From Lachnospiraceae bacterium (lineage in GTDB: Bacteria > Bacillota > Clostridia > Lachnospirales > Lachnospiraceae): a stretch of 59,373 nucleotides of DNA. Of the stretch, positions 6,543 to 15,117 are shown piece after piece. The position numbers and the translations under genes were made by a program. Numbering within the stretch: the first letter of the stretch is position 1; every line of letters starts with the position of its first letter. Below the pieces are notes generated by a model. It saw only the letters and a list, made by a program, of their open reading frames with translations, had not been told where the DNA came from and made no database searches. The stretch is taken from the NCBI GenBank assembly GCA_024683645.1, contig JAIKYA010000159.1, positions 1-59,373 of the forward strand. Reading direction: 5' to 3'.

Positions 6543-6589
6543 CCACAAGATGTTGTGGCACAGAAGAATATAAACACTAAGAATTGTTC
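6543..6589 (+). promoter_or_regulatory. two candidate NrdR boxes in the nrdD leader
   Basis: Box 1 is CCACAAGATGTTGTGG at 6543-6558; box 2 is ACACTAAGAATTGTTC at 6574-6589. Each is 16 bp and their starts are 31 bp apart, about three helical turns, as known for tandem NrdR operators. Compared with the NrdR consensus acaCwAtATaTwGtgt, box 1 keeps every strongly conserved core base while box 2 is weaker in the centre. Position just downstream of the promoter would allow NrdR to block transcription when dATP is high. Confidence 0.65.
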
Positions 6590-6601
6590 TGGAGGCGGGT
6601 T

Positions 6602-8764
6602 ATGTCAGAGATCGATTTCGGAAAAGAGTATAAGCCGAAAAGGGCCGTAAAGGTCATCAAAAAGGATAATACACTGGAGGAATTCAATGTCCAGAAGGTG
6701 ATCGATGCCGTGGGAAAGAGCGCATACAGGGCACTGACCGAGTTTACCGAGGAAGAAAAGCGGCGCATCTGTCAGTATGTCATAGAAAAAGTTGATGAGA
6801 TGGATGTGGATGAGATCCCCATTCCCATCATGCATAATGTTGTGGAAAGTGCACTGGAGCAGGTAAAACCCATAGTGGCAAAGAGCTACAGGGATTACCG
6901 CAATTACAAGCAGGACTTTGTGCGCATGCTGGATGATGTCTACAAGAAGAGCCAGTCCATCATGTATATAGGCGATAAGGAAAATGCCAATACAGATTCC
7001 GCTCTGGTGTCTACCAAGAGAAGTCTTATATTCAACCAGCTCAATAAGGAGCTGTATCAGAAATTCTTTTTAACGACAGAAGAACTGCAGGCCTGCCGTG
7101 ACGGATATATCTATGTGCATGATATGTCGGCAAGGCGCGATACGATGAACTGCTGTCTTTTTGATGTACAGAATGTTTTAAGCGGCGGCTTTGAGATGGG
7201 AAATATCTGGTATAACGAGCCGAAGACGCTGGATGTTGCTTTCGATGTCATAGGAGATATAGTGCTCAGTGCCGCTTCGCAGCAGTACGGCGGCTTTACC
7301 GTACCCGAGGTTGATAAGATACTGGAACCCTATGCGGAAAAGTCCTATGCGAAATATACAAAGAAATATGAGGCCATGGGTGTGGATAAGGCCACTGCCG
7401 AGGCTGAAGCTTATAAAGATGTGGTAAGGGATTTTGAACAGGGCTTCCAGGGCTGGGAGTACAAGTTCAATACCGTGGCATCAAGCCGCGGCGATTATCC
7501 TTTTATAACGGTGACTGCCGGTATAGGCAGGGGACGTTTTGCAAAACAGGCTACCATTGCGATGCTGAACGTGCGCCGCAAGGGACAGGGCAAGGCCGAT
7601 CACAAGAAGCCGGTGCTCTTCCCGAAGATAGTATTTCTCTACGATGAGAACCTTCACGGTCCCGGAGGGGAGCTGGTCGATGTGTTCAAGGCCGGTGTTG
7701 AATGTTCGGCCAGGACCATGTATCCCGACTGGCTGTCTCTCACCGGTAAAGGATATATAGCGAGCATGTACAAGCAGTACGGCAAGGTGATATCACCCAT
7801 GGGCTGCAGGGCTTTTCTCTCGCCCTGGTACGAGAGAGGCGGCATGCATCCTGCGGATGACAAGGACGAACCCATATTTGTAGGGCGTTTCAATATAGGT
7901 GCGGTCTCACTGCATCTGCCGATGATACTGGCCAAGTCAAGACAGGAGAGCAGGGATTTCTATGAAGTGCTGGATTACTACTTAAACCTGATACGTCAGC
8001 TCCATATACGTACTTACGCCTATCTCGGAGAGATGAGAGCATCCACCAACCCGCTGGCATACTGCGAAGGCGGTTTCCTCGGCGGTCATCTGGGACTTCA
8101 TGACAAGATAAAACCGCTGCTCAAGGCGGCAACCGCTTCTTTCGGCATCACGGCACTTAATGAGCTGCAGATGCTATATAACGGAAAGAGCCTTGTGCAG
8201 GACGGACAGTTTGCGCTGGATGTGATGGAACACATAAACAGGCGTATCGCGGAGTTTAAGGAAGAAGACGGCAATCTTTATGCCATCTACGGTACTCCGG
8301 CCGAGAGTCTCTGCGGACTGCAGGTCCAGCAGTTCAGAAAGAAATACGGCATAATCGAAGGTGTATCCGACAGGGAATATGTGAGCAATTCCTTCCACTG
8401 CCATGTAACCGAGGATATCACTCCGATCCAGAAGCAGGATCTTGAGAACCGTTTCTGGGAACTTTTAAACGGCGGAAAGATACAGTATGTAAAATATCCC
8501 GTAAGCTACAATACCGAAGCCGTGAGCACACTGGTGCGCCGTGCGATGGATATGGGCTTCTATGAGGGAGTAAATCTAAGCCTCGCATACTGCGATGACT
8601 GCGGTCACGAAGAACTGGAGATGGACGTATGCCCGAAATGCGGCAGCCGTAACCTGACCAAGATAGACCGCATGAACGGATACCTTTCCTACTCGCGTGT
8701 CCACGGTGATTCCAGGCTTAATGACGCCAAAATGGCCGAGATCGCGGAAAGGCGGTCCATGTGA
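6602..8764 (+). CDS. nrdD: anaerobic ribonucleoside-triphosphate reductase (class III)
   Basis: Reduces ribonucleoside triphosphates to deoxyribonucleotides without oxygen, using a glycyl radical made by NrdG. 720 residues. An N-terminal ATP-cone (about residues 10-100) provides dATP/ATP allosteric control. A zinc ribbon sits at Cys664, Cys667, Cys677 and Cys680, and the radical glycine is Gly693 in RMNGYLS, 28 residues from the end as expected. Start ATG 6602 is six bases after GGAGG; the frame extends to a TTG at 6584 inside the second candidate NrdR box, which is unlikely as a start. It is followed by a repeat array and then nrdG. Confidence 0.97.
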   Translation: MSEIDFGKEYKPKRAVKVIKKDNTLEEFNVQKVIDAVGKSAYRALTEFTEEEKRRICQYVIEKVDEMDVDEIPIPIMHNVVESALEQVKPIVAKSYRDYRNYKQDFVRMLDDVYKKSQSIMYIGDKENANTDSALVSTKRSLIFNQLNKELYQKFFLTTEELQACRDGYIYVHDMSARRDTMNCCLFDVQNVLSGGFEMGNIWYNEPKTLDVAFDVIGDIVLSAASQQYGGFTVPEVDKILEPYAEKSYAKYTKKYEAMGVDKATAEAEAYKDVVRDFEQGFQGWEYKFNTVASSRGDYPFITVTAGIGRGRFAKQATIAMLNVRRKGQGKADHKKPVLFPKIVFLYDENLHGPGGELVDVFKAGVECSARTMYPDWLSLTGKGYIASMYKQYGKVISPMGCRAFLSPWYERGGMHPADDKDEPIFVGRFNIGAVSLHLPMILAKSRQESRDFYEVLDYYLNLIRQLHIRTYAYLGEMRASTNPLAYCEGGFLGGHLGLHDKIKPLLKAATASFGITALNELQMLYNGKSLVQDGQFALDVMEHINRRIAEFKEEDGNLYAIYGTPAESLCGLQVQQFRKKYGIIEGVSDREYVSNSFHCHVTEDITPIQKQDLENRFWELLNGGKIQYVKYPVSYNTEAVSTLVRRAMDMGFYEGVNLSLAYCDDCGHEELEMDVCPKCGSRNLTKIDRMNGYLSYSRVHGDSRLNDAKMAEIAERRSM

Positions 8765-8846
8765 GCGATAAGCGACGAGCATGGATGCGTATCGACAGAT
8801 TACGGCAGAAAACTTGTTTTCATGCCGGAAGCTGTAGAGACGCAGA
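8765..8846 (+). other. divergent leading part of the nrdD-nrdG intergenic structure
   Basis: Begins directly after the nrdD stop with GCGATAAGCGAC (8765-8776), the exact reverse complement of GTCGCTTATCGC present in each downstream repeat (8903-8914, 9034-9045, 9165-9176). It also holds an imperfect hairpin (about 8804-8827, arms CGGCAGAAAAC and GTTTTCATGCCG) resembling the second hairpin of the repeat unit. It looks like a degraded or founder copy. No coding frame. Confidence 0.55.
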
Positions 8847-9180
8847 CATGTGAGTGCAACGGTCATCCGATAGATCTTCGGAGAAGATCAATCGGATGAG
8901 GAGTCGCTTATCGCGGAGAAGAAAAGAACCGCAGATCAGCCGGAAAACAAGTTTTCCGGGTGGCAACGATGCGGATGCATGTGAGTGCAACGGTCATCCG
9001 ATAGATCTTCGGAGAAGATCAATCGGATGAGGAGTCGCTTATCGCGGAGAAGAAAAGAACCGCAGATCAGCCGGAAAACAAGTTTTCCGGGTGACAACGA
9101 TGCGGATGCATGTGAGTGCAACGGTCATCCGATGGATCTTCGGAGAAGATCAATCGGATGAGGAGTCGCTTATCGCGGAG
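8847..9180 (+). repeat. 131-bp tandem repeat, 2.5 copies, hairpin-rich
   Basis: Copies start at 8847, 8978 and 9109 (period 131); the third stops after about 72 bases. The copies are near identical: one base differs between copies 1 and 2 (TGGCAACG against TGACAACG), and copy 3 differs once (GATGGATC). Each full unit has two hairpins: a 15-bp stem with one A-A mismatch (CATCCGAT plus GATCTTC, loop GGA) and a 9-bp stem CCGGAAAAC/GTTTTCCGG. The array ends just before a T-run (9183-9189). It fills most of the 454-base gap between nrdD and nrdG and holds no gene. Confidence 0.95.
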
Positions 9181-9218
9181 TGTTTTTTTGATAATTGTGA
9201 AAGGAACGAATATCTGTA

Positions 9219-9725
9219 ATGCGCTACCATAATATTACTCACGATGATATGTTAAACGGTGACGGCCTGCGCGTAGTTCTGTGGGTAGCGGGCTGTGAGC
9301 ATTGCTGCAAGGGCTGCCAGAATCCGCAGACCTGGGATGCCGAAGGCGGGCTGCCTTTTGATGAGGCTGCGAAAGCCGAGATCTTTGAGCAGCTGGATAA
9401 GTCTTATATCTCGGGACTCACTTTTTCCGGCGGAGATCCGCTTTTTCCGGGGAACAGGGTGGATGTGCGGAAACTGGCTCAGGAAGTAAAGGAAAAATAT
9501 CCGGACAAGACTATCTGGCTTTATACGGGATATCTCTGGGAACAGGTGCTGCATTATCCGGTGATGCAGTACGTGGACGTACTTGTCGACGGAGAGTTCG
9601 AACAGGATAAATTTGATGCAAATCTGCGCTGGAAGGGGAGCGCCAACCAGCGGGTCATCGATGTACAGAAGAGCCTTAAGCTTACGGATCCCACGGATCC
9701 GGTAATTTTCTGCGAGGATTATTGA
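9219..9725 (+). CDS. nrdG: anaerobic ribonucleotide reductase activating protein (radical SAM)
   Basis: Generates the glycyl radical on NrdD from S-adenosylmethionine. 168 residues, the usual size. The radical SAM cluster motif CX3CX2C is Cys26, Cys30 and Cys33 (CEHCCKGC), followed by Q-N-P typical of NrdG, and the SAM-binding GGDP is at residues 71-74. AAAGGA about 15 bases upstream is a modest ribosome site. Separated from nrdD by the tandem repeat array, which could change the NrdD to NrdG ratio. Four bases precede dut, so these two are co-translated. Confidence 0.96.
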
Positions 9726-9729
9726 GAAT

Positions 9730-10164
9730 ATGGAAAAGATAAAGATCAAATATTTTACGGACAGGATAGAGAAGCTGCGTTATATTGACGGAAAGTCGGA
9801 CTGGATAGATCTGCGCTGTGCCGAGGATATAGTGCTTAAGAAGGGAGAATTTAAGCTGATCCCTCTCGGCGTTGCCATGCAGCTGCCGAAAGGCTATGAA
9901 GCCCATGTGGTGCCGAGGAGTTCAACATTTAAAAACTTCGGCGTGATACAGACAAACCATTGCGGGGTGATAGACGAGAGTTATTCGGGCGATAACGACC
10001 AGTGGTTTATGCCGGTGTATGCCGTGAGAGATACGGAGATACATGTAAATGACCGTGTATGCCAGTTCAGGATCATGGAGCATCAGCCGGCCATCGATTT
10101 TGAAGAAACGGACCGGCTGGGGGATACCGACCGCGGCGGTTTCGGCAGCACCGGAAAGGCATAG
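9730..10164 (+). CDS. dut: deoxyuridine 5'-triphosphate nucleotidohydrolase
   Basis: Hydrolyses dUTP to dUMP, keeping uracil out of DNA and feeding dTMP synthesis. 144 residues, trimeric type. Motif 2 is PRSS at residues 62-65, motif 3 [10 protein letters not shown] at 79-88 with catalytic Asp82, motif 4 RVCQFRI at 109-115, and the C-terminal RGGFGSTG at 135-142 that closes on the substrate. Motif 1 is divergent ([10 protein letters not shown]). Its place behind nrdD-nrdG makes a deoxynucleotide supply operon. A terminator follows. Confidence 0.95.
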
Positions 10165-10205
10165 CAAAATAAGCCCTGAGCTGTTGAATTTTTTAAGGTA
10201 CAGTT

Positions 10206-10238
10206 AAAGCGGAAATCTTGTGTTTTTCGCTTTTTTTT
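10206..10238 (+). terminator. Rho-independent terminator after dut
   Basis: Stem AAAGCGGAAA (10206-10215) pairs with TTTTCGCTTT (10224-10233) with one G-T wobble and an 8-base loop, then an uninterrupted T-run to 10238. Confidence 0.8.
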
Positions 10239-10246
10239 GTTAAAAT
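10218..10246 (+). promoter_or_regulatory. possible promoter of the GS[FY]-repeat operon
   Basis: TTGTGT (10218-10223), 17-bp spacer, TAAAAT (10241-10246). It overlaps the dut terminator. Predicted start near 10253 would leave about 70 bases of leader before ATG 10322. Match to consensus is moderate. Confidence 0.4.
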
Positions 10247-10321
10247 GTTATGCGTAATTTTATGTGCAAAGCCGGTTTGTCAAAGCGAACCGACGATGAT
10301 ACCGGTTTTCGCGGAGCTCAA

Positions 10322-11227
10322 ATGGGAAGAGTTTTTGACTGGCTGGACAGGAAGACGTACGAGCCTGTCCGGGAATATGACATTCGGATAAACTCTTTGG
10401 CGGCATTCCATGCAGGGTATGCCTTTTTCTCGTTGATCAATTATGAAGATGATATAAATGCCTTCCATGTATACAATGTCTGGAACGGAGAGTTTAATTC
10501 AAAGCTTGTGAGCGCTCTGCCATCGGGCGGTTTTATGCTGCATTGCGACAGGGAGCTGGCGGAGCGGCTTTCGGAAGGCAATACCGGTTATCCGGTTTTC
10601 GTCAGGTTAAAGTCAAAGCGCGGACGGCTCTATGTGATGAGCTTCTGTGTTACCTATTCCGATATGGTCATGGATATGTATTTCAACGGCTGCGAGGTGA
10701 TCCCGCCCGAATATGTATGGTTCTTCAGAAATGAAGCACCGGACGATGCTCATATGAACGAGAGCATGATAAGCCGGGAAGTCCCGGCACTTGCCGGCAG
10801 CCGTATACCTTCTTTATTCGGACCGCGTACAAGCTACAGGGGCAGTTACGGCAGCGGTCTGTTTATGCGCGGAAGCTACCGCAGGACGGGAAGTTTCAGA
10901 AACAGCCTGCGATCTTCATACAGTTTCGGCAAAGGTTTCGGAGCAGTCAGCGGCATCGGAGGCGCCGGCAGTTTTGCAAGAGGCAGTTTTCTTTTGGGCT
11001 ACGGTTACGGGAGCTTTCTGAGAGGGAGTTTTCCGGCAAGGCTCTATAACGGCAGTTATTATTCCGGAAGCTATCACAGGGGGAGCTTTGTTTACGGCGG
11101 CGGTGACGGCGTATCAAGATATATGCGGGGTGAGAGCGGTGATACCGGTCTTGAAGGCAGAAAGGATGTACGCTTCGTAAACAGAAGGCTCATCGAAGAG
11201 CTGGGTTACGGATTGGATCTTATATGA
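10322..11227 (+). CDS. hypothetical protein with GS[FY] repeat region
   Basis: 301 residues from ATG 10322, which has GCGGAG five bases upstream; the frame is open to an ATG at 10250 that lacks any ribosome site. Residues 1-140 look like a folded alpha/beta domain of unknown family. Residues about 171-262 are low complexity, basic and rich in Gly, Ser, Tyr, Phe and Arg, with ten GS[FY] triplets. In the second half they fall at spacings 5, 9, 5, 9, 5, 5, i.e. a roughly 14-residue unit of the form GSFxRGSFxxxxYx. Codons for the triplet vary freely, so the peptide rather than the DNA is being kept. The tail (about 263-301) is ordinary sequence. No signal peptide or membrane helix. The stop overlaps the next start (ATGA). 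Function unknown. Confidence 0.8.
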   Translation: MGRVFDWLDRKTYEPVREYDIRINSLAAFHAGYAFFSLINYEDDINAFHVYNVWNGEFNSKLVSALPSGGFMLHCDRELAERLSEGNTGYPVFVRLKSKRGRLYVMSFCVTYSDMVMDMYFNGCEVIPPEYVWFFRNEAPDDAHMNESMISREVPALAGSRIPSLFGPRTSYRGSYGSGLFMRGSYRRTGSFRNSLRSSYSFGKGFGAVSGIGGAGSFARGSFLLGYGYGSFLRGSFPARLYNGSYYSGSYHRGSFVYGGGDGVSRYMRGESGDTGLEGRKDVRFVNRRLIEELGYGLDLI

Positions 11228-12072
11228 AAGGCTTCTATTCACTCTGGACAGCACCATATTTCGTAAAAGGCGGGGAAAGCTTTCATCTGGAGGATTACGA
11301 GATCGCAACCCTTCTGCTCTCTGTTGCTGCCTATCAGGCTTATAACGGTCCCGTACGTATGTATGCCGATGATACCGCGTGCAGCTATCTGGAGGAAGAG
11401 GGGATAGCGGATATCTTTGAACGCGGCGTGGTAAGGATGGAAGTACCTGATGATATCGATCCGAAAGTATACTGGGCAGCGGGGAAAATGGTGGCACTTT
11501 CAATGGAGGATACCCCTGCCGTTATGATAGATACGGATCTCATCATCTGGAAAAATATAGAAAAAGAACTGAAAGACGCATATGTAAAGGTGATACACAG
11601 GGAGGAACTGAATCCCGAGATATACCCGGATCCCGGATGTTTCGAGATGAAAAAGGGTTATGAATTTCCCGCAGGCTGGGACTTTAAGGTGCTTCCGGCC
11701 AATACGGCGCTGCTCTATATCGCTGATGCGGATCTTAAGGATAAGTTTACCTGTGAGAGTCTTAAGTTTATGAAGATGAGTGAGCAGACCGATGACAAAC
11801 TCTGCCACATGGTTTTCGCAGAGCAGAGGATACTCCCGATGTGCGCGGCAGCAAAGGGGTACGGAGTTGAGGCCTTCTGCAGCGATCCGGGAAAACTCAG
11901 GGAACAGAGCCTGTTTACACATATATGGGGGCACAAGAACGTGTTTAAGTTCAATATGGACGAGCGCCGTGCTTTCTGCAGAAGATGTGTAAAGAGACTG
12001 GCGGGCGAGTTCCCGCTTATGTATGTAAAAGCCAGAGAAATAAAGGAACTGGAGGATATCCTTAATGCTTAA
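11224..12072 (+). CDS. glycosyltransferase-like (DxD) protein of unknown function
   Basis: 282 residues, soluble, starting at the ATGA shared with the repeat protein. The N-terminal half has a GT-A-like pattern: a beta-strand/helix layout and a hydrophobic strand ending in MIDTDLIIW (about residues 99-107) that supplies a DxD-type metal and nucleotide-sugar site. The C-terminal half has several Cys and His residues (H-I-W-G-H near 237-241) and ends in a helix. Predicted role: transfer of a sugar, acceptor unknown. The tight coupling suggests the neighbouring repeat protein as a candidate acceptor, which is inference. The family may be one known only as a DUF; exact assignment not verified. 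Confidence 0.7.
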   Translation: MKGFYSLWTAPYFVKGGESFHLEDYEIATLLLSVAAYQAYNGPVRMYADDTACSYLEEEGIADIFERGVVRMEVPDDIDPKVYWAAGKMVALSMEDTPAVMIDTDLIIWKNIEKELKDAYVKVIHREELNPEIYPDPGCFEMKKGYEFPAGWDFKVLPANTALLYIADADLKDKFTCESLKFMKMSEQTDDKLCHMVFAEQRILPMCAAAKGYGVEAFCSDPGKLREQSLFTHIWGHKNVFKFNMDERRAFCRRCVKRLAGEFPLMYVKAREIKELEDILNA

Positions 12073-13006
12073 GGTATCTCATATATATAAAAGCTACAGC
12101 GGCAGGGAAGTTATAAGCGACCTTGATTTTGAGACGGAAAAGGGCGGAATATACGGATTTCTCGGACCGAACGGTGCAGGCAAGAGCACTACGATGAACA
12201 TGCTGGCGGGCTACCTGAGACCGGATTCGGGAGATATTAAAATAGGCGGCATCTCGCTTTTGAAAAATCCGCTGAAAGCCAGAAAGCTGCTTGGCTATCT
12301 GCCGGAGCAGCCTCCGCTGTACCAGGATATGACGGTAAGGGAGTATCTTGAGTATACCGCTGAACTTAAGGGACTGCGTGGTGCGGATAAAAAAAGCGAA
12401 ACAAAGCGGGTTGCGGAGCTTGCCGATCTTGAACCTGTCCTGAACAGGCTGATAAGACAGATATCAAAAGGCTACAAACAGAGAACGGGACTCGCAGGAG
12501 CCATCTGCGGGGATCCCGAACTCCTGATACTTGATGAACCAACATCCGGGCTCGATCCCAAGCAGATCGTGGAGATGAGAGGGCTGATAAAAAAGCTCGG
12601 AGAAAAGAGGACCATCATCCTTTCAACTCATATACTCAGCGAAGTGAGTGCGGTGTGTGATCATGTGCTCATACTGTGCGGAGGAAAGCTTCTGGCTGAT
12701 TCGCCAAAGGATGAACTCCTTACGAAATACAATGACAGGCAGAGACTTAAGCTCGTGCTGAAAGGCAATGCTACTGCCGCAGAGAACGATGCTTCTAAGA
12801 TAGAGGGAGTGGAGAGTATCAGAACGCTGAGCGAGGATGAAAACTCGACGGTCATAGAACTGACCGCAACGCCCGGCGAGGACCTGCGGGAAGCGGTGGC
12901 GCAGATGTGCGTATCTGACGGCTTTACGCTGCTGGAACTTGCCGATAACAGGATCGGGCTTGAAGATGTGTATCTGAAACTGACACAGGGGGGTGAGGAA
13001 GAATGA
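12065..13006 (+). CDS. ABC transporter ATP-binding protein
   Basis: 313-residue ATPase of the CcmA/GldA/NatA type. Walker A is GPNGAGKST at residues 34-42, the ABC signature is ISKGYKQR near 138-145, Walker B is LLILDEPTSGLDP, and the switch histidine is in LSTHIL. A C-terminal extension of about 90 residues is typical of ATPases paired with ABC-2 permeases. The start overlaps the glycosyltransferase-like gene by eight bases and the end overlaps the permease by four, so it is translationally coupled to both. It energises the permease/GldG-type protein that follows. Confidence 0.92.
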   Translation: MLKVSHIYKSYSGREVISDLDFETEKGGIYGFLGPNGAGKSTTMNMLAGYLRPDSGDIKIGGISLLKNPLKARKLLGYLPEQPPLYQDMTVREYLEYTAELKGLRGADKKSETKRVAELADLEPVLNRLIRQISKGYKQRTGLAGAICGDPELLILDEPTSGLDPKQIVEMRGLIKKLGEKRTIILSTHILSEVSAVCDHVLILCGGKLLADSPKDELLTKYNDRQRLKLVLKGNATAAENDASKIEGVESIRTLSEDENSTVIELTATPGEDLREAVAQMCVSDGFTLLELADNRIGLEDVYLKLTQGGEEE

Positions 13007-15117
13007 TCCCTGTGCTGAAAAAAGAATGGAAATCCAATTTTAAGACCCTGACCGGCTGGCTGTTCCTTGCGATCACGCTGTTCTTCACGGGCTGGTATTT
13101 CAAAGCTTACGGACTGGATGAAGGATATCCTTACCTTTCGTATATCATAGGCGGGCTGAAGCTTATATTCATGTTTACTTTTCCGCTGCTTACCATGAGG
13201 AGCTTTGCGGAGGAGAAAAGATACAGGACCGATCAGCTGCTGTTTACCGCACCCGTCTCTGCCAGAGCCGTTGTAGCCGGAAAGTACCTGGCAGCGCTTA
13301 TGACCTTTCTTACGACAGTTCCCCTGCTGCTTGTATTCATGTTCATACTGTCGATATACGGGGACGTGCCTTTTAAGGAAAATGTCGTTGCGGTAATTTA
13401 TTTTGTGCTGTTTGGCATGGCCTGTATAGGTATAGGGATATTTATCTCTGCGCTTTCGGATAACCAGATAATCGCTGCCGTCCTGACTTTCTTTGTGCTC
13501 ATGTGCAGTGCCTCGGTATCGGGGATAGTGAGCTCGGCCGGGGTGAAGAATGAAGTGCTGCTTAAGATATTCGGGCTCTTTGACCTGGCCAGACCTTTTG
13601 ATAACGGTATGTACGGTACGCTTGACCTTGCCGATCCGGTATATTATATTTCCGTTACGATACTCATGCTCTATCTTACGGAATTTGTCCTGACTTCCCG
13701 CAGGCTTCATGTGAAGACCAGCGGTTTTCTGAATGCGGCGACAGGAGTTCTCAGGCTCGTACTGGTCCTGGCAGTGATGGCCGGCTGTAATCTGGCTGTC
13801 AGGGGGCTGGAGTCCGGAAAGCGGACCATAGATATGACCTACAATAAGATACGTTCTCTTTCGGAACAGGCAAAGGAAGCGATAGAGGGGCTGTCCGAAG
13901 ACGTTATGATCTATGTCTACTGTAATGAGAGTGAAAAGGATGATACCCTGGATTCAACCCTCAGCTATATGTCGGCATATAATGACAGGATAAAGACTGT
14001 ATATATCGACCCCGCGGCCAATCCGCAGTTTTACCGCCAGTACAGCGACAGGGAGCCTTCGACAGGCAGCCTGATAGTGACCGCCGGTGACAGGAGCAGG
14101 GTGATAGAATATGCAGACTGTTACAAGCTGAATTACAAATACGCTTACAACGCGGTGAGCGATACCTATGTGGTCAGCGGCTATGATGTGACGGGCTATG
14201 ACGGTGAGGGAAAGATAGTATCCGCCATAGATTATGTAACGGATGCGTCGCTTAAAAAGATATACTGTATAGGCGGGCATGATGAAGCGGAAGTTGATAC
14301 GGAACTGAAGATGCGTATAGAGAACGCTCATTTCGAGCTGGAGAACATAAACCTGCTGCAGTATGACGAAGTGCCGCAGGACTGCAGCGTGCTCTTCCTG
14401 CTCGGGCCGCTTACGGATCTGACGGATGATGAGCTGGGAAAACTGAAAAAATTCACGGGGCGGGATGCGGGTGCCGTGCTGCTTTGCGCATATACGGACG
14501 GTACCGTGCAGAAAAACTACGATTCACTGCTTGCAGGACTGGGGATAAAGGTGCTGGACGGAACGGTCTATGAGGTCAACGAGGCATATTATAACAACGA
14601 AGATTCCTATCTCCTGCCGGTCATAGCGGATACACCGTGGACGCAGGGGATATACACCGGGGACCGTACAAGGTATATTTATATGCCTTTTGCAAAAGGC
14701 CTGAAACTTACCGAAACACCGGGAGCCGAATGCAGGACATTCCTTTCTTCTTCCGAGAGTGCACGCTTAAACGGAACGGATGAGGATGAAGAAGGACCTT
14801 TTTCACTGGGTGTATATGTAAAAAAGTACCTTGATAAGGGAAGCTTCAGGGCTGCGGTCATCTCATCGGATTACTTCCTGGATCCGGGAATAAACCGCGC
14901 GGTCGGCGGCAGCAACCACAATCTGTTCATAAAACTGCTGACGTCGGTAGCCGAGACGGGAGAGGTAGCTGACATAGCGGTAAAGAATTACGAATATGAC
15001 CGCATACTGGTGCCGGGAGGCGTCAGGACCGTAATGGGCGGATTCTTCATGGCTGTTCTGCCGCTTATGATGATAGCGGTAGGCATGATCATCAGAGAGA
15101 TAAGGAAAAGAAAATAA
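13003..15117 (+). CDS. ABC-2 permease fused to a GldG-type auxiliary domain
   Basis: 704 residues. Residues 1-240 hold six predicted membrane helices of a GldF-like permease. A further helix near 243-266 leads into an extracytoplasmic region of about 400 residues of the GldG/ABC_transp_aux kind (segment starting near IRSLSEQAKEAI, with a periplasmic-binding-like LLGPLTDLTDDE region). A last helix (about 680-698) ends in a basic tail. In Bacteroidetes GldF and GldG are separate subunits of a gliding-associated transporter; in Firmicutes related transporters have no assigned substrate. Overlaps the ATPase stop (ATGA). In this operon it could export or anchor a modified product, but that is not shown. 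Confidence 0.85.
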   Translation: MIPVLKKEWKSNFKTLTGWLFLAITLFFTGWYFKAYGLDEGYPYLSYIIGGLKLIFMFTFPLLTMRSFAEEKRYRTDQLLFTAPVSARAVVAGKYLAALMTFLTTVPLLLVFMFILSIYGDVPFKENVVAVIYFVLFGMACIGIGIFISALSDNQIIAAVLTFFVLMCSASVSGIVSSAGVKNEVLLKIFGLFDLARPFDNGMYGTLDLADPVYYISVTILMLYLTEFVLTSRRLHVKTSGFLNAATGVLRLVLVLAVMAGCNLAVRGLESGKRTIDMTYNKIRSLSEQAKEAIEGLSEDVMIYVYCNESEKDDTLDSTLSYMSAYNDRIKTVYIDPAANPQFYRQYSDREPSTGSLIVTAGDRSRVIEYADCYKLNYKYAYNAVSDTYVVSGYDVTGYDGEGKIVSAIDYVTDASLKKIYCIGGHDEAEVDTELKMRIENAHFELENINLLQYDEVPQDCSVLFLLGPLTDLTDDELGKLKKFTGRDAGAVLLCAYTDGTVQKNYDSLLAGLGIKVLDGTVYEVNEAYYNNEDSYLLPVIADTPWTQGIYTGDRTRYIYMPFAKGLKLTETPGAECRTFLSSSESARLNGTDEDEEGPFSLGVYVKKYLDKGSFRAAVISSDYFLDPGINRAVGGSNHNLFIKLLTSVAETGEVADIAVKNYEYDRILVPGGVRTVMGGFFMAVLPLMMIAVGMIIREIRKRK

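Follow-up and report, generated by a model that had tools for sequence, protein, structure and literature searches.

A near-invariant C-terminal peptide on serine-rich bacterial proteins encoded directly upstream of DUF6734, a putative glycosyltransferase

A stretch of 59,373 nucleotides from a Lachnospiraceae bacterium (assembly GCA_024683645.1, contig JAIKYA010000159.1; the whole stretch is hereafter the window) encodes, on the forward strand, a protein with a serine-rich repeat region and, directly downstream, a protein of the family DUF6734 (PF20508), followed by the ATPase and permease of an ATP-binding cassette (ABC) transporter (Table 1). As described in an earlier note on this DNA, the four genes overlap end to start: the TGA stop of gene 1 lies within the ATGA at 11224 that begins gene 2, genes 2 and 3 share 8 bases, and gene 4 begins in an ATGA at 13003. 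The longest open frame of gene 1 begins at 10250; a start at 10322 is more likely, because a GGAG lies at Shine-Dalgarno distance from it and the related proteins align from there. Here we show that the two-gene pair, rather than the four-gene set, is the unit, and that the first protein of the pair ends in a short conserved peptide.

Table 1. Features of the locus, numbered by position in the window
Feature	Position	Strand	Remarks
Gene 1, tagged serine-rich protein, 301 aa	10322..11227	+	N-terminal domain, GS[FY] region and C-terminal tag
Gene 1, N-terminal domain (~147 aa)	10322..10762	+	found only in the genus of the window
Gene 1, repeat region rich in Gly, Ser, aromatic residues and Arg, ten GS[FY]	10823..11095	+	
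Gene 1, C-terminal tag GYGLDLI	11204..11224	+	protein end reads EELGYGLDLI
Gene 2, DUF6734 protein, 282 aa, GT-A/GT8-like by motif order	11224..12072	+	PF20508
Gene 2, DTD (D103, D105; residues 103-105), putative DxD	11530..11538	+	both D invariant in 33 sequences
Gene 2, N160-T161 (ANTALLY), in the place of the GT8 NSGV-like motif	11701..11706	+	invariant; aligned by hhalign with FNAGVLL of a GT8 protein
Gene 2, E200-Q201-R202 (FAEQR), in the place of the GT8 DQ motif	11821..11829	+	invariant; aligned by hhalign with D-Q of the GT8 consensus
Gene 2, FTHIWGHK (T232, H233, W235 and K238 invariant), candidate late H..K motif	11914..11937	+	outside the hhalign match
Gene 3, ABC transporter ATPase, GldA-like	12065..13006	+	not in the core unit
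Gene 4, GldF/GldG-like fused permease	13003..15117	+	not in the core unit

The C-terminal heptapeptide of the gene 1 protein, which the earlier note had missed, recurs throughout the relatives of this locus. When 31 further proteins of the genus were inspected for their C-terminus, three proved to be cut by contig ends, and all 29 complete proteins (28 plus that of the window) end in GYG[LI][DNG]LI, with an additional W in three. Over 93 genes from all sources the tag has the consensus G[YF]G[LI]x[LI][IV], with residue counts of G 93; Y 92 and F 1; G 93; L 84 and I 9; any of E, D, N, H, G or R at position 5; L 92 and I 1; and I 82 and V 11, the search pattern having required G at positions 1 and 3 and having been looser elsewhere than the consensus that resulted. 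The fetched loci contain 7,472 closed frames of 60 aa or more; 99 of them end in the tag, and 96 of the 99 lie directly upstream of DUF6734 (four loci are counted twice, L202, L203, L205 and L206 repeating L178, L179, L187 and L182). For two others (L051 and L195), the DUF6734 gene that follows is truncated by the end of the contig, and one is a chance frame in L053. The genome of the window itself holds one match only to a degenerate tag pattern, which omits Glu at position 5.

The 93 tags are encoded by 74 distinct DNA 21-mers, and selection on the tag thus acts at the peptide level. The possibility that the tag is conserved as a DNA effect of the start of the next gene was rejected on this ground; moreover, the first residue of DUF6734 that aligns lies at a distance of -4 to 178 bases from the tagged gene's stop, and in L075 and L083 three residues follow the tag. 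In L009, a second copy coding for the tag (M-G-Y-G-L-D-L-I) is found 33 bases past the stop of the tagged gene, perhaps a duplicated end.

The pairing of the tagged gene with DUF6734 extends well beyond the genus. Matches to gene 1 were found in 31 of the 34 other genomes of the genus, the three without one (G009, G012 and G017) being 72-81% complete, and in all genus loci with a contig long enough to show it, the GSY gene is followed by DUF6734. In profile searches of samples that share some genomes, DUF6734 was found in 7 of the 250 genomes sampled from the family, 3 of the 398 from the phylum, 51 of the 87 from family f31, 1 of the 17 from family f92 and 20 of the 391 from the class. We examined 103 genomes with DUF6734: 30 of the genus, including that of the window; 49 of f31 (48 plus G633); 5 from the rest of the family; G697, which belongs to f92; and 18 further genomes from the class sample. 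In 95 of them, the gene immediately upstream, in the same orientation, encodes a tagged protein (30/30, 49/49, 2/5, 1/1 and 13/18, respectively). For f31, the surroundings leave out G753 and a weak hit in G794; in G013, the pair is split over two contigs, with the tag end in L056. Besides the 28 of 28 complete genus proteins other than that of the window, the 48 of 48 fetched f31 loci and the loci of the class sample, the pairing was seen in L075, L076, L082 and L083. The paired genomes span seven families of one phylum (f1, f31, f32, f33, f92, f172 and f207), and in at least 73 of the 96 loci the two genes overlap or are at most three bases apart, as measured to the first aligned DUF6734 residue. 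The neighbourhood check proposed in the earlier note thus favours the pair, which is adjacent in all genus loci that reach it, while in other families too a tagged, mostly serine-rich protein precedes DUF6734.

Apart from the tag, the N-termini of the tagged proteins fall into ten BLAST groups mutually unlinked at E 1e-3, with 48 (f31), 29 (the genus), 6 (f207) and 4 (f172) members and six singletons, some of which are short and could be missed relatives. The N-terminal domain of the window protein has matches in 2 of 250 family genomes, both of the same genus, no Pfam or NCBIfam match and only chance-level PDB matches; none of the N-terminal domains of the scanned tagged proteins lies above the cut-off of any curated family. 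The occurrence of so constant a C-terminal peptide on ten protein types unrelated to one another, nearly always directly ahead of a single kind of enzyme, strongly suggests a recognition tag. A serine-rich stretch also recurs: a segment of some 40 residues contains at least 7 Ser in 91 of the 93 proteins and at least 8 in 89. No membrane-like segment (19 residues above 1.6 on the Kyte-Doolittle scale) was found in any of the 93, and the tagged protein is therefore probably cytosolic. An AlphaFold model of the window protein with one relative gave nothing usable (predicted local distance difference test score, pLDDT, 32.9).

In the window protein, the serine-rich region contains the ten GS[FY] triplets counted in the earlier note (residues 174, 184, 190, 216, 221, 230, 235, 244, 249 and 254), and the codon variation reported there is borne out by eight different 9-base codings among them. 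Shuffling of the 90-residue stretch yields 0.9 triplets on average and 6 at most, with none of 20,000 shuffles reaching ten. The 14-residue register described in the same note holds in the second half only; over the whole region the spacings are 10, 6, 26, 5, 9, 5, 9, 5 and 5. The repeat region is wholly different between genus orthologues: G014 and G033 have pentapeptides of the GSFNL type, G008, G019 and G023 heptads (GSYRGIG/GSYRSLL), G015 a unit of 13 residues, and G011 and G028 stretches rich in GSG. The spacing modes are 5, 7 and 10 in the genus and 4 and 6-8 in f31, and over all tagged proteins the repeats are of the GSY, TSY, SSF or plain (SG)n kind in changing registers; six f207 proteins carry (SG)n with almost no aromatics. 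In the genus repeat region, Ser or Thr precedes 57% of 1,100 aromatic residues (Ser alone 598), against a mean of 21% and a maximum of 23.7% in shuffles; in f31, the figure is 79% of 435 (Ser alone 338), against 44% and 49.5%. The corresponding count in the genus N-terminal domain is 49 of 653, about the background of Ser plus Thr there, 6.5% (these counts omit L055, which yielded no region). Since Phe is nearly as frequent as Tyr in the repeat region and the (SG)n proteins of f207 are almost devoid of aromatics, Ser is the constant element. Tyr is disfavoured as an acceptor, being freely replaced by Phe and missing from the (SG)n proteins.

When the repeats of eight orthologues were scanned against the libraries, those of L059 and L060 matched Pentapeptide_2 (E 1.9e-34 and 3.3e-37), those of L054 an ice-binding beta roll (9.6e-9) and those of L061 NigD_N (8e-8), all above cut-off, and the other four matched no repeat family. 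Because four of the eight match three unlike families and four match none, such matches reflect the register and not a common fold. The resemblance to Pentapeptide_2 (MPTR-type) proteins is thus seen in two of the eight scanned orthologues, but the register of the tagged proteins is not kept among orthologues. The five-residue, pentapeptide-like solenoid that the earlier note had offered as an alternative does not hold in general: five-residue spacing fails in the window as well, and a fixed solenoid as a general rule was rejected, the register being unlike between orthologues and shifting between species. An alternating Tyr-Glu tract occurs in the serine-rich region of 7 of the 93 tagged proteins (L061, L104, L110, L184, L187, L189 and L195), from four families and with unrelated N-terminal domains; MYEYEYEY is common to 4 of the 7, and the codons vary in the five genes whose DNA was inspected, so that the tract is a feature of the peptide. 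Three of the 93 proteins (L040, L042 and L116, from two families) have tracts of eight to ten consecutive Asn in the same region, encoded by both AAT and AAC.

The DUF6734 protein encoded by gene 2 matches PF20508 barely above the cut-off (E 2.7e-6, 27.4 bits, cut-off 27), and a six-frame search of the genome with the same model gives 25.7 bits, just below it. In alignment A5, which comprises 33 DUF6734 sequences (that of the window and 32 others, 25-60% identical to it), all 33 members match the model at E values of up to 10, the best at 1.1e-19. No published mention of DUF6734, PF20508, GYGLDLI, GYGLELI or GYGLNLI was found in a search whose scope took in few subscription papers; PF20508 is described there only as a family of unknown function, and its link to a tagged upstream protein stems from the present analysis. 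The residues invariant in A5 include K88, D103, D105, N160, T161, E200, Q201, R202, T232, H233, W235 and K238. The DTD noticed previously is indeed present; set in the frame MIDTDLIIW, it is followed by N-T, E-Q-R and T-H-x-W-x-x-K, in an order like that of the glycosyltransferase family GT8 (glycogenin/LgtC-like; PF01501), whose motifs are DxD, N-[ST], [DE]-Q and a late H-x-x-G-x-x-K-P-W. DUF6734 differs from GT8 in the form of the last motif and in having no significant sequence match to it.

Profile comparison by hhalign places the D-x-D, N-T and E-Q of DUF6734 on their equivalents in GT8 proteins from these genomes. Against nine GT8 sequences, A5 scores 23.0, which is reached by 2 of 200 column shuffles (95th percentile 17.9), and a set of 76 DUF6734 sequences scores 20.9, reached by 1 of 200; in each case one shuffle, outlying at about 132, is counted as reaching the real score. 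The nine sequences are those kept of ten fetched, L165 having been left out for want of a DxD pattern and L159 included without a true DxD. The ordered motifs and the weak profile match support the earlier guess of a GT-A-like protein, for which a database match and a usable model were both missing, and suggest that DUF6734 probably adopts a GT-A fold.

Enzyme and substrate is the most natural reading of the pair, with the chemistry putative. We propose, with a probability of about 0.5 and from sequence evidence, a two-gene modification module in which DUF6734 would be a glycosyltransferase that binds the tag and glycosylates serines of the upstream protein. Gene 1 would then encode the acceptor, composed of a lineage-specific N-terminal domain, a low-complexity serine-rich region and the C-terminal tag. 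The tagged protein would be made first and DUF6734 beside it, as the overlap or near-contact of stop and start implies. DUF6734, with its predicted GT-A fold and GT8-like motifs, would dock on the tag and transfer sugar from a nucleotide-sugar to serines of the flexible repeat region, for which the register would be irrelevant, yielding a putatively cytosolic product. The decorated product might be a primer of storage polysaccharide, a condensate controlled by sugar or a matrix protein, all of which are compatible with the proposal, and the variety of N-terminal domains suggests that they bring the decorated region to different partners. In its most specific form, which we advance tentatively and hold somewhat doubtful, DUF6734 may carry out tag-directed cytosolic O-glycosylation, reading the heptapeptide on otherwise unrelated proteins and densely glycosylating their serine-rich regions.

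Several results weigh against this proposal. DUF6734 has no significant match to any glycosyltransferase family or PDB chain in searches of PDB, Pfam and NCBIfam; single members touch Nucleotid_trans (E 0.083) and an arginine-glycosyltransferase model (E 0.071), both at chance level. PDB searches with alignments A1, A2 and A5 gave chance matches only, and single-sequence searches likewise or nothing. In the hhalign comparison, reversed GT8 scores 17.8 against A5 and 17.6 against the 76-sequence set, and the pairwise E-value of a control dUTPase equals that of GT8 (0.053 and 0.054). The AlphaFold model of DUF6734 alone was unusable (pLDDT 31.2), and two tagged proteins, L178 and L083, are not serine-rich (five Ser). 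In addition, 8 of the 103 DUF6734 genomes have no tagged neighbour, namely the five of genus g640 (L196-L200), where no tagged gene was found within the 11-19 kb fetched around DUF6734, and three with distant homologues (L077, L078 and L079). A tree was built from 51 chosen DUF6734 sequences, with four of the five g640 members among them. On it, the tag label needs two changes, and g640 is nested in a tagged clade and thus apparently represents one secondary separation. In those g640 loci whose neighbours were inspected, the DUF6734 gene belongs to a run of genes that also includes methyltransferase-, MltG- and dihydroorotase-like ones (named by eye). The distant DUF6734 proteins of L077 (1643-4577) and L078 (2291-8656) have an N-terminal extension containing GAVGM and lie, judging by eye, beside proteins with RCC1-type-like repeats, and in L078 also beside Hsp70- and radical-SAM-like proteins; their arrangement is apparently another system.

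As regards the transporter, which the earlier note had proposed as a functional part that exports, anchors or senses the product, the loci tell otherwise. Among the genus loci whose contig goes on, the ABC gene follows the pair in 22 of 28 and GldFG in 21 (in G032 the contig stops before it); the ABC gene is not beside the pair in G002, G003, G004, G026, G027 and G034. A GldFG-like gene lies elsewhere in G003, G026 and G034 (31-32% identity over most of the length), G002 has a partial weak match, and the GldFG of the window has no match in G004, G027, G719, G760 and G633, five of the 13 genomes searched. In 48 loci of f31, mostly of 5-11 kb, the ABC protein of the window has no match and GldFG has one. 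An ABC exporter as a necessary part was rejected on these grounds, and the transporter is a frequent neighbour in the genus but dispensable. The neighbours of the pair are mixed and mostly unrelated.

These observations also bear on the rival explanations. The tagged protein could be a partner or targeting subunit, with DUF6734 acting on some other acceptor (a glycan, a lipid or a small molecule) and the tag docking the enzyme on a serine- and aromatic-rich, possibly condensed protein. We regard this as rather unlikely: the tag is indeed more constant than the serine-rich region, and L178 and L083 carry it without a serine-rich stretch, but nearly all tagged proteins are serine-rich despite their unrelated N-termini, and the pair lies in varied surroundings. 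That DUF6734 is not a glycosyltransferase at all, but another enzyme or a binding protein that reads the tag, would fit the missing database match and the weak hhalign signal; the invariant MIDTDLIIW, N-T, E-Q and H-x-W-x-x-K in GT8-like order make it unlikely.

A conserved C-terminal element next to an enzyme of a modifying type, with ABC genes next door in most genus loci, also recalls a ribosomally made natural product, in which gene 1 would encode a precursor with a C-terminal recognition sequence, DUF6734 would modify it and the transporter would export it. We consider this improbable given the large N-terminal domain and proteins of up to ~460 aa, the lack of the ABC gene beside the f31 pairs and of a GldFG match in the five genomes named above, and the lack of any NCBIfam precursor model matching the window protein. 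Finally, the repeats could form a structural coil of the pentapeptide or beta-roll type, with DUF6734 incidental, as the library matches of L059, L060, L054 and L061 might imply. However, these are three unlike families for one orthologous region, half of the scanned orthologues match none, and the register modes differ from group to group (besides those of the genus and f31, 13 in L061 and (SG)n in f207), which renders a coil very improbable. The proposed glycosylation module can be set beside several known systems.

In serine-rich repeat glycoproteins, serines of low-complexity repeats are glycosylated intracellularly by GtfA/GtfB, and an accessory Sec system is present (PMC6973325, PMC5578698). 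The step proposed for DUF6734 resembles this intracellular glycosylation. DUF6734, however, belongs to another enzyme family, and the tagged proteins have a C-terminal tag and no export-type segments (0/93). No GtfA/GtfB or SecA2/SecY2 was noticed by eye among the neighbours in the genus and f31, which were not scanned with those models. The (SG)n region is reminiscent of serglycin and other eukaryotic Ser-Gly acceptors, the L182 protein reaching E 8.8e-4 against the Serglycin model, below the cut-off; the tagged proteins are bacterial, however, and only the dipeptide repeat is in common. FG nucleoporins, which are O-glycosylated, and FET-type low-complexity proteins are dense in [GST]S[FY] with Arg; the likeness of the tagged repeats to these is one of composition and implies no homology.

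Upstream of the pair, at 6584-10164 in the window, lie anaerobic ribonucleotide reductase-, activase- and dUTPase-like genes (named by eye), and the activase, dUTPase and tagged genes are consecutive in 12 of 32 genus loci. In L053 (G007), an open frame of 1,111 codons (8063-11395) is found between the dUTPase-like and the tagged gene; none of that size is listed in the other loci. DUF6734 had no match in the phages or plasmids searched and neither gene was found in viral contigs, and a phage or plasmid origin was rejected on this basis. The anti-phage library PADLOC gave no match and the phage library PHROG only matches at E 0.066 or weaker; by the libraries used, the pair is no known defence or phage system.

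If tag-directed glycosylation is true, the tagged proteins would correspond, as soluble bacterial proteins, to proteoglycan cores or to FG-type proteins modified with O-GlcNAc, and the tag would be a transplantable glycosylation label by which sugars might be placed on proteins of choice. A concrete, testable job is thereby assigned to a domain of unknown function, and these bacteria would gain, should the proposal hold, a dedicated cytosolic route of O-glycosylation.

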